Below, in pieces: positions 61,573 through 63,747 of a stretch of DNA of 64,000 nt. Position 1 is the first letter of the stretch. Each line of letters starts with the position of its first letter. The position numbers were made by a program, and so were the translations under genes. The notes under the pieces are model-generated. The model was not told the DNA's origin. It saw only the letters and a program-made list of their open reading frames with translations, and did not search any database. Source of the stretch: Butyrivibrio sp. (GTDB lineage Bacteria; Bacillota; Clostridia; Lachnospirales; Lachnospiraceae); the NCBI GenBank assembly GCA_015056625.1, contig SVFY01000001.1, positions 1 through 64,000 of the forward strand, in the 5' to 3' direction.

Positions 61573-62166
61573 TCAGGTCAGTTCATCAAGGGTACTGCCA
61601 TATGAAGACAAAAATTCATTGACGAAATCAAGGACCTCCGGAAGCTCCTGATAGAGGCTCCTTATGGCCTTGCCTGTGCTCTCTTTTGCAGTCCTGAACT
61701 CAGAATTGCCTGCATTCATCTCTCCGATGCACTTGATAAGGGCCGAGAGCTTGTCAGCTGCCTTGACGAGCTTTCTCATATATCTCTCATCCTCTGAATC
61801 AGCAGGAACAAATATCTCTTCAAAAGAGGGCCTTAGATCATCCGGAAGTTTTTCAAGGAGCTTGGAATCAGCGATAGCCTCAACCTCCTTGTATGCGTGC
61901 TTGAGTTCTTTATTAAAATACTTAACAGGTGTTGGCATATCTCCCGTGATGATCTCAGATGCATCATGGTAAAGGCCTATGAGCGCCGCCTTGTTGGCAT
62001 CAAGATGCTTGCCATAGCGCACATTGCCTATAGTGCAAAGAGCATGGGCAATGATAGCCACCTCCATTGAGTGTTCGCAGAGATTCTCCTGCCTTGTATT
62101 CCTCATAAGAGCCCAGCGCTCGATATATTTCATCCTGGATATAAGCGCAAAGAAATTGTAGTTCAT
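61573..62166 (-). CDS. HD-domain hydrolase, YfbR-like 5'-deoxynucleotidase
   Basis: The 197-residue protein matches YfbR in size and opening: FFALISRMKYIERWALMRNTRQENLCEHSMEVAIIAH. Metal and catalytic motifs are EHS, LYHDASEIITGDMPTPVKY and the later Asp in KAADKLSAL. YfbR dephosphorylates deoxynucleoside 5'-monophosphates. I chose ATG 62166, with AGGGGG 5-6 nt upstream; the reading frame continues to 62277 without homology. The upstream gap holds a periodic inverted-repeat array. Confidence 0.9.
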   Translation of the reverse strand: MNYNFFALISRMKYIERWALMRNTRQENLCEHSMEVAIIAHALCTIGNVRYGKHLDANKAALIGLYHDASEIITGDMPTPVKYFNKELKHAYKEVEAIADSKLLEKLPDDLRPSFEEIFVPADSEDERYMRKLVKAADKLSALIKCIGEMNAGNSEFRTAKESTGKAIRSLYQELPEVLDFVNEFLSSYGSTLDELT

Positions 62167-62265
62167 GGTATCCCCCTTGTATTTGTCTGTTAGCCGTATA
62201 GGCGCGACTATGTTTATTCTATCATATTTATATTGATACTCACGATAAATGTAAACCTGCTCATT

Positions 62266-62520
62266 GCATATAAACATGTATGTTTTTTGGCTTTTATATG
62301 CCTATTTAGTAGAATCTCCAGCAATTCTATCTTATCAAACTCTCAAGAGCATATAAATTTCAGTTCAGTCGATATTGTTATATGCCTTTTCATTCTTGAC
62401 GCCACTTTATTACAACGACAGTGGGAAAATATGCATATAATACCATGTTATAATCCTGATTTTATATGCCAACGCTCTTTGTCACCAAAAAGATATTTCT
62501 ACATTCAGTTGACTTGGCAT
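62266..62520. repeat. 84-bp-periodic array of alternating GCATATAA / TTATATGC motifs
   Basis: The 384-nt gap between yfbR and hemW (62167-62550) contains GCATATAA at 62266, 62349 and 62433 and its inverse TTATATGC at 62294, 62378 and 62462. Periods are 83/84 and 84/84 bp; pairs are 28-29 bp apart. A decayed GCAT lies exactly 84 bp further, at 62517. The sequence between motifs is not repeated, though two intervals contain short dyads (62310-62329; 62402-62406 with 62420-62424). Nothing else recognisable is in the gap. Confidence 0.8.
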
Positions 62521-62550
62521 CACAAAACAACATCTTGCTAATATTATCTT

Positions 62551-63747
62551 TCACAGCAGAAAATCAGCCATTATTGTGTTGCTGACATCAAGACCAGTAT
62601 CAGTAAGACGAAGGCAGGTCTGGTTTGTATAATGATCAGGATCGCTCTCTGAAACAATCTCCAAGTGCCCAGACTTAACATATCTTTCAATCACATCCCC
62701 ATATACCTCAGTTATATCCTGGGAAAAGAGCTGTCTAAACTCCTCTACATCTACTCCCCTCACAAGCCTTAGCCCCAGGAACATGAACTCTTCCATCTGG
62801 CTCTGAAAGCTTAATTCTTCAAGGTTTTCTTTGATACTTGACATGTCAGCAGAAAAATCCACGTATCTGCGCATATCTCTGGTGTTACTCCACCTGACGT
62901 TGTCCACCATTGACGCAGCGCCAAGGCCAAGCCCCAGATAATTGCCTCTCTGCCAGTAAACCTTGTTGTGGGCGCACTCGTAGTTTCCACAAAAAGTGCC
63001 ATTTCCTGCATTTTCTGCAGATACGTCCCTTGCGTAATTTGATATCTCATACCTGTGGTAGCCATGCTCCTTAAGATAGCGCTTGGTCTCGTGATACATG
63101 GCTCTGTCTGTTTCCTCGTCAGGAAGGTGTAAATCCATGTCGTAAAAAGGTGTTCCCTCCTCTACGATAAGGCTGTAGGCGGAAATATGCTCAGGACCCA
63201 TTTCCACAACCTTCTTAAGGGTCTCCATGTAGGAATCAAAGCTCTGGTCAGGAAGAGCGCTCATAACATCGATATTGATGTTGTCAAAACCAGCCTGCCT
63301 TGCATTTTCAAAGGTTTCGGCAAACATCCTGCTGTCGTGGAGCCGGCCGAGCTTTTTTAGCTCATCATCATTAAGGGACTGGGCTCCGATGCTGAGCCTG
63401 TTAAAGCCAGCTTCTTTAAATGCGCAAAGCTTATCATATATAGCTGATGCGGGATTTACCTCAATGCTGATCTCGCAGTCATTACTAAGGTTGAAGGCAC
63501 TCTTTATAGCCTCAAGGGTGTCACAGAGCTTTTCTCCTTCCGGAAAAGAGGGTGTCCCTCCCCCAAAGAAGATCGTCTTTACAACCCTGTCTTCATATTC
63601 TTTGGATGCTTCTTTTATCTCTTTTAAAAGAGCTTCAAAGTAATTATCTCTTTCCTCTTTTCCTGCAGCAAAAGAAAGGAAGTCGCAATATAAGCACTTC
63701 CTTTCACAAAATGGTATATGAACATAAATTGAAATATCTCTGCTCAT
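62551..63747 (-). CDS. hemW: Radical-SAM heme chaperone HemW (coproporphyrinogen-oxidase-like)
   Basis: HemW is related to oxygen-independent coproporphyrinogen oxidase HemN but acts as a heme-binding chaperone. The 398-residue protein has the motif CERKCLYCDF near residue 14, FFGGGTPS, and IEVNPAS, with a C-terminal HemN-C-like domain (FMFLGLRLVRGVDVEEF). The short four-residue extension and cysteine arrangement fit HemW. It lies immediately downstream of lepA, the usual order in Firmicutes. Confidence 0.93.
   Translation of the reverse strand: MSRDISIYVHIPFCERKCLYCDFLSFAAGKEERDNYFEALLKEIKEASKEYEDRVVKTIFFGGGTPSFPEGEKLCDTLEAIKSAFNLSNDCEISIEVNPASAIYDKLCAFKEAGFNRLSIGAQSLNDDELKKLGRLHDSRMFAETFENARQAGFDNINIDVMSALPDQSFDSYMETLKKVVEMGPEHISAYSLIVEEGTPFYDMDLHLPDEETDRAMYHETKRYLKEHGYHRYEISNYARDVSAENAGNGTFCGNYECAHNKVYWQRGNYLGLGLGAASMVDNVRWSNTRDMRRYVDFSADMSSIKENLEELSFQSQMEEFMFLGLRLVRGVDVEEFRQLFSQDITEVYGDVIERYVKSGHLEIVSESDPDHYTNQTCLRLTDTGLDVSNTIMADFLL

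Follow-up and report, generated by a model that had tools for sequence, protein, structure and literature searches.

The window analysed here, a 64-kb stretch of a Butyrivibrio contig, carries in one of its intergenic gaps an array of short inverted half-sites, GCATATAA and TTATATGC. Arrays of the same design occur upstream of genes encoding a family of nuclease-like proteins, and we regard it as probable, judging from sequence comparison, that the array is a DNA-bending or DNA-wrapping platform to which such a hairpin/beta-tip protein is predicted to bind. The array consists of three exact GCATATAA-N20/21-TTATATGC units (62266-62301, 62349-62385 and 62433-62469), with half-sites 28, 29 and 29 bp apart and unit centres separated by 83.5 and 84 bp. 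It thus has the features by which we recognise the wider system, namely inverted half-sites of ~8 bp at fixed spacing, in at least three units set at a multiple of ~10.5 bp. Its half-site is identical to that of gene-linked GCATATAA arrays, which lie upstream of the gene at L053, L061, L065, L068, L074, L087, L098 and L106. An earlier sequence-only reading had described the three alternating inverse pairs with the same spacing and period, and the sites were found exactly in the sequence. It had also placed a decayed fourth site, GCATCACA, in register; this site matches poorly by a count made by eye, no partner arm was seen, and we give it no weight. The array's membership in a system with a nuclease-like protein, which is not visible from the window alone, escaped that reading.

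The assembly of this genome (G000) comprises 2.74 Mb and is 85% complete. Searching it for GCATATAA-N18-24-TTATATGC returned three matches, all of them the window array, and none for the reversed control pattern; the genome-wide search suggested by the earlier reading yielded no further pairs of this kind in the assembly. Within the window, no other 8-mer builds an inverted-pair array of at least three units within 400 bp. Such 8-mer arrays were absent from 30 first-order Markov versions of the whole window, and comparable arrays were absent from 20,000 first-order Markov versions of the gap, which is 67% A+T.

Occurrence and helical phasing of the arrays

A two-unit pattern search of one genome per species (84,980 species) yielded 64 loci. 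Fifteen, taken to be operators of another type or likely chance, were left out of the array counts (L051, L052, L070, L075, L077, L078, L089, L090, L091, L093, L096, L097, L100, L102 and L107); ten of these were read and the remaining five judged on spacing alone. Viral contigs gave one locus with the two-unit pattern, and viral locus L108 was kept for neighbour comparison and dropped from spacing counts. The remaining 49 loci came from Butyrivibrio, Pseudobutyrivibrio, other Lachnospiraceae, a Clostridiales metagenome-assembled genome (MAG), an unclassified MAG and Fibrobacter, a member of a different phylum. Within the genus of the window, a like two-unit pattern matched 4 of 79 genomes. When 19 array-bearing genomes were searched, each contained 1-25 exact single units, and the reversed control gave 0 in all 19. 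A chance origin in A/T-rich DNA might be argued from the array's A/T-rich half-site and from single loosely spaced pairs, which do arise by chance. The zero counts in simulations and with the reversed pattern in this genome speak against it, and the like arrays in other species and in another phylum already refute it, which leaves chance a negligible probability.

The spacing of the units is quantised. In GCATATAA arrays, the half-sites of a unit start 27-29 bp apart (170 units, 51 loci), and neighbouring unit centres are separated by 62-65, 73-75, 82.5-86, 94-96, 104.5-105.5, 126.5-128 or 137 bp. The best period for these distances was 10.55 bp (R 0.93, 119 gaps, null maximum 0.31), or 10.50 bp when each value was counted once per locus (R 0.91, 80 gaps, null maximum 0.38). 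Arrays with other half-sites gave the same 10.50 bp (R 0.85, 237 gaps, null maximum 0.24). Different spacings mix inside single Fibrobacter arrays, as in L065, with 84, 95.5 and 74.5 bp.

The base composition between the half-sites is phased as well. With arrays aligned on their unit centres and half-sites masked, the A/T content of GCATATAA arrays peaked (~0.7-0.9) at 0, 9, 21-22, 30-32 and 42-43 bp from the dyad and dipped (0.43-0.51) at 5, 24-25, 35 and 47 bp. Forty-six arrays with other half-sites independently showed the same phase (40/46 positive), with an amplitude of 0.042 at 10.5 bp and a null maximum of 0.016. Comparable A/T phasing is known from DNA wrapped on histones, in nucleosomes, or on gyrase, and its presence in the arrays suggests that their DNA may be bent or wrapped in one direction.

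Arrays lying away from family genes, which we call orphan arrays, were compared at 35 loci. They occupy gaps between tandem (17), divergent (6) and convergent (6) genes, four lie at locus edges and two overlap an open reading frame. These counts, which carry no null, show no visible preference for a gap orientation, and regulation of neighbouring genes by orphan arrays was rejected as an explanation.

The nuclease-like family and its half-sites

The family protein has ~270 residues and combines a helical hairpin bearing a three-stranded beta tip with a PD-(D/E)XK-like nuclease domain; no Pfam or NCBIfam family was assigned to it. E170 and E187 are conserved in 108/108 sequences, D201 and E216 in 107/108 each and K233 in 103/108. 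These acidic and lysine residues are those expected of a putative PD-(D/E)XK enzyme, and from knowledge of that family we take them to be the catalytic set. A fold search with the N-terminal part gave only generic coiled-coil and prefoldin-like matches, and a conjectured likeness to the arm-type beta tip of integrases was not confirmed.

The family is encoded in 70 of the 79 genomes of the window's genus, with up to 11 matches per genome, and 61 of the 79 have two or more matches, fragments included. Of 398 genomes spread over the phylum, 18 had a match: five full-length, all within the window's taxonomic family, and 13 covering mainly the C-terminal half. Of the 19 array-bearing genomes, picked for their GCATATAA arrays, 18 encode the family, which does not in itself prove a matching half-site. 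In the window genome the family is represented by four full-length paralogs and a fragment. A 36-residue open frame on the window's own contig (L153, G000:C22:205890-205988) matches the family's C-terminus (E 1e-4) and is perhaps a family remnant.

Arrays are concentrated upstream of the family genes. The paralogs fetched were high-scoring ones rather than a random sample. A strict search found arrays of at least three units within 900 bp upstream at 58 of 110 family genes. It found none in shuffles, and none in the mostly coding 900 bp that begin at the start codon. Leaving out nine genes that had been found through an array, 50 of 101 had an upstream array of at least three units. Over 600 bp, arrays lay upstream in 57/110 cases versus 7/101 after the gene. 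Looking from the arrays (n=50 loci compared), a family gene was the nearest neighbour in 8, and the array lay upstream of it in 7. Upstream arrays end a median of 120 bp (16-531) before the called start codon; in six genes of the TACGTGA group this distance is 16-19 bp. Downstream-only arrays were found at L083 (one full unit plus a half), L114, L248, L258 and L290. At L228, L299 and L301, three of the 7/101 after-gene cases, arrays with the same half-site flank the gene on both sides, and the gene is placed as if inside an array.

By our own count of the consensus list, the arrays use more than 20 half-sites, in up to 14 units; among them are GCATATAA, GTATATAA, TACGTGA, TACGTCC, TGACTAA, CTGTTG, TGCCTA, CCTATA and TTAGCC. 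Counting those linked to genes, exact TGACTAA units number 16 in G015, 22 in G034 and 30 in G045; this half-site matches in 26/79 genomes, with reversed-control matches in 6. The window genome contains five exact TGACTAA units, of which three, with a period of 83-84 bp, precede its own family gene L149 (G000:C18:44500-48282) and two lie elsewhere. A five-unit TGACTAA orphan array in G015 (C7:148865-149194, by L110) lies ~1.6 kb from the GCATATAA array preceding a family gene, an example of different array types close together. The 14-unit CCTATA/TATAGG array upstream of the family gene L304 (G107:C47), with its 54-55 bp period, could be mistaken for a clustered regularly interspaced short palindromic repeat (CRISPR) array.

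Half-sites are conserved and follow the protein. In seven aligned array pairs, picked by hand because they shared flanks or were similar, with one locus entering two pairs and one pair being gene-linked, 8/415 half-site positions had changed versus 194/1607 elsewhere (p 3e-12). The more alike two proteins are, the more alike are their half-sites (Mantel r 0.53, 0 of 999 permutations). Holding whole-protein identity constant, with one member per 80% cluster (37 proteins), residues 41-70, the beta tip, still predicted the half-site (partial r 0.256, 0/2000 permutations). Helix 2 was a weak predictor (partial r 0.075, 109/2000), and the nuclease domain (partial r -0.08), helix 1 and the middle part were slightly negative. 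Since only the beta tip clearly predicts the half-site, these data point to the tip as the putative reading head.

The changes in the aligned pairs also bear on the proposal, left open by the sequence-only reading, that the units are structured RNA: transcribed hairpins forming a structured leader or small RNAs. All units are inverted repeats, the arrays linked to genes may fall in a 5' leader, and the four matching two-arm changes exceed a rough, uncomputed expectation for independent arms. Set against these are 61 one-arm changes (non-matching two-arm changes were 0), arm letters that are identical across units, arrays and phyla, the spacing quantised at ~10.5 bp and the occurrence of orphan arrays in all gene orientations. 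Searching with Rfam covariance models gave nothing near threshold, the sole match being a sub-threshold STnc420 at 61613-61667, outside the array. RNA hairpins are therefore disfavoured, and we consider them very improbable. Alternatively, a general host factor, gyrase or a nucleoid protein for example, might bind or wrap the DNA of the arrays. The resemblance of the A/T phasing to the wrapping signals of nucleosomes and gyrase would suit this; the multitude of half-sites, coupled to the tip of the protein that the adjacent gene encodes, and the family's presence in nearly all array-bearing genomes, make it highly unlikely.

Presence, absence and neighbouring genes

The window array lies between a yfbR-like gene and a radical SAM gene that we take, following the earlier reading, to be hemW (Table 1). 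Alignment of this gap with related strains, which that reading had proposed, showed the array absent at the same place in G028 and G021, the two closest relatives (yfbR 99% identical). The gap measures 384 bp in the window genome, 92 bp in G028 and 105 bp in G021. What is missing from G021 is, instead of the G028 segment, ~62227-62505 (ends placed by eye, uncertain by a base or two). Because the endpoints of the absence differ, separate deletions fit better than one insertion, and a single clean insertion of the array is unsupported.

Table 1. Features of the hemW-yfbR region of the window
Feature	Position	Strand	Remark
YfbR-like 5'-deoxynucleotidase, flanking gene	61573..62169	-	PF12917, E 1.9e-75
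Segment (~292 bp) missing from the gap of close relative G028	62241..62533		ends by eye, +/-1-2 bases
Orphan three-unit array	62266..62469	none	unit centres 62283.5, 62367, 62451
Half-site GCATATAA, unit 1	62266..62273	+	
Half-site TTATATGC, unit 1	62294..62301	-	
Half-site GCATATAA, unit 2	62349..62356	+	
Half-site TTATATGC, unit 2	62378..62385	-	
Half-site GCATATAA, unit 3	62433..62440	+	
Half-site TTATATGC, unit 3	62462..62469	-	
Former "decayed fourth site" GCATCACA	62517..62524	+	5/8, partnerless; left out of array
HemW/HemN-like radical SAM protein, flanking gene	62551..63747	-	PF04055 + PF06969

Absence of arrays was also seen elsewhere: two orphan arrays and one gene-plus-array of G015 are missing at syntenic places in relatives. 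The close relative G034 (L218), compared with G015 (L022), lacks ~620 bp that contain an orphan array together with the end of the gene next to it; this looks like a third loss of an array, again with endpoints of its own. At the place of the G015 orphan array L020, locus L215 (G046:C135) has no three-unit array; it has one GCATATAA/TTATATGC pair with wider spacing, within another inverted repeat.

Family genes adjoin ordinary genes such as recA, smpB, rpsI and metK, with one match each. The 192 neighbouring proteins formed 129 clusters, and 67 proteins, picked from 110 listed representatives, were scanned. A conserved partner gene was rejected, as no Pfam family occurred in more than 3 of the 67; one neighbour was a clear defence-type match (AbiEi). 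In the largest neighbour clusters (13, 10 and 6) the family genes are 56-100, 44-99 and 89-99% identical to each other, and these clusters seem to mark chromosomal places held in common, not partner genes. Thirteen family genes that share one conserved neighbour and 56-100% identity (L260, L263, L274, L277, L283, L286, L288, L289, L293, L295, L296, L297 and L302) illustrate this. The neighbour, in the member scanned, is an RNA-methyltransferase-like gene; the array-bearing genes have GTCTGC, CTGTTG or TGCCTA half-sites, and some have no detected array. These genes appear to represent one chromosomal place with several predicted specificities.

A rival reading is a selfish or homing-type element, whose nuclease would cut or recombine at the arrays as substrate or landing sites, with orphan arrays as unoccupied, vacated or transposed copies. 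Comparison of occupied and empty sites by eye revealed no target-site duplication and no terminal repeats, the arrays of one genome share little besides half-sites (by eye), and half-sites are conserved rather than eroded. With one query, the protein was found in 1 of 50,697 phage records, where no array was found, and in 0 of 72,556 plasmid records, and a phage or plasmid home of the family was rejected; in IMG/VR, the relatives encoded at 10 loci are limited to about the C-terminal half. We consider a homing-type element unlikely.

A predicted binding platform and its relation to known systems

The arrangement that we favour is a platform bound by the family protein. The beta tip of this ~270-residue protein would read each ~8-bp half-site, and two inverted half-sites would make up one unit. 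Whole helical turns, 5 to 10 or more of them, would separate the units, on DNA with A/T-rich patches about every turn, so that neighbouring units could assemble on one face and the bound DNA be bent or wrapped one way into a compact nucleoprotein. The ~10.5-bp spacing, phased A/T content, half-site conservation and coupling of half-site to protein domain agree with the earlier suggestion of protein-binding sites all facing one side of the helix. As arrays adjacent to family genes lie mostly upstream of the gene, the protein likely controls its own expression, and for gene-linked arrays this is the most likely role. Orphan arrays, including that of the window, would be platforms at other chromosomal places, to which the same protein would bind in trans. 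Either the window array is such an orphan, or its cognate gene lies within the missing 15% of the assembly. The biological role may lie in self-control, nuclease storage, defence or homing and selfish spread. A bolder version is a bacterial nucleosome-like device: a mobile single-gene module in which the nuclease builds wrapped particles on phased arrays under an evolvable half-site code. Arrays scattered over the chromosome would keep the nuclease stored and in check, as an antitoxin made of DNA, and the nuclease would be set free by their loss or upon invasion by foreign DNA. This version we hold to be decidedly doubtful.

Several observations weigh against a binding platform. Loosely spaced single GCATATAA pairs occur in 17/99 relatives versus 5/99 for the reversed control, and chance also yields them. 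One array-bearing genome, G133, has no detected family member, and in the window genome no GCATATAA pair lies beside any paralog or anywhere outside the window array. Tandem duplication and orthologous copies inflate the unit counts, some orthologous arrays being counted twice, and other half-sites taken once per array gave a best period of 10.80 bp (R 0.80, 87 gaps, null maximum 0.35). The A/T profile of GCATATAA arrays is descriptive, with no null for the set as a whole; in the 46 other arrays the amplitude at 11.0 bp (0.045) slightly exceeds that at 10.5 bp; and the phase is the same, though weak, in the window array taken by itself (p 0.018, one test). Finally, 52/110 family genes have no strict upstream array, and arrays downstream or on both sides of the gene, together with the widely varying distances between array and start codon, fit simple autorepression poorly.

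The system is apparently large and undescribed: among the abstracts listed in searches of a mainly open-access literature, none describes it. Features of iterons, operators and homing nucleases can be recognised in it, but we know of no system in which a nuclease-type reader and a half-site code specific to each paralog go together with an A/T wrapping signal on phased inverted units. If our reading is correct, most genomes of a rumen genus would carry several copies of an undescribed DNA-shaping protein-DNA system, and a natural code would tie a ~30-residue beta tip to ~8-bp sites. The tip would offer a new DNA-recognition scaffold with many natural specificities, it would become testable whether bacteria control nucleases by DNA wrapping, and a class of intergenic repeats otherwise taken for junk or false CRISPR arrays would be explained.

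Among known systems, the candidate phage-defence PDC-S68 of PADLOC resembles the family's C-terminal nuclease domain (E 2e-20 to 2e-26, five proteins scanned). The likeness covers about the last 115-130 of ~1220 model positions only, and PDC-S68 models span ~1200-1270 positions versus the ~270 residues, hairpin/beta tip and phased arrays of the family. The I-Bth0305I/VSR-type PD-(D/E)XK homing endonucleases and TnsA differ too: a Foldseek search of the PDB with the family protein gave no match at E <=0.001, and the scanned neighbours include no recurrent partner gene. CRISPR arrays are likewise regular intergenic repeats, but direct repeats within the window array are at most 13 nt rather than long and near-identical, its conserved parts are 8-10 bp and self-inverted, and the flanking genes identified, in the absence of a genome-wide cas search, are not cas genes, which fits the sequence-only reading's dismissal of CRISPR. 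The letters TTATATGC/GCATATAA recur in operators of Bacteroidetes that are presumably of XRE/HipB type, the sites themselves having been read. These TTATATGCN4GCATATAA-type sites, at L077, L089, L107, L051, L078 and similar loci in Bacteroidetes and others, share letters with the array and differ in geometry, being few, with half-sites 12 bp apart and a ~40-bp period, and lying, in the cases read, next to apparent small helix-turn-helix genes (by eye). Plasmid iterons and partition-site arrays are likewise cognate arrays on one helix face beside the gene of their binder, with specificities distinct for each paralog. Unlike these, the arrays described here have inverted half-sites ~28 bp apart, in units 5-10 turns apart, a nuclease-type protein and chromosomal orphans.
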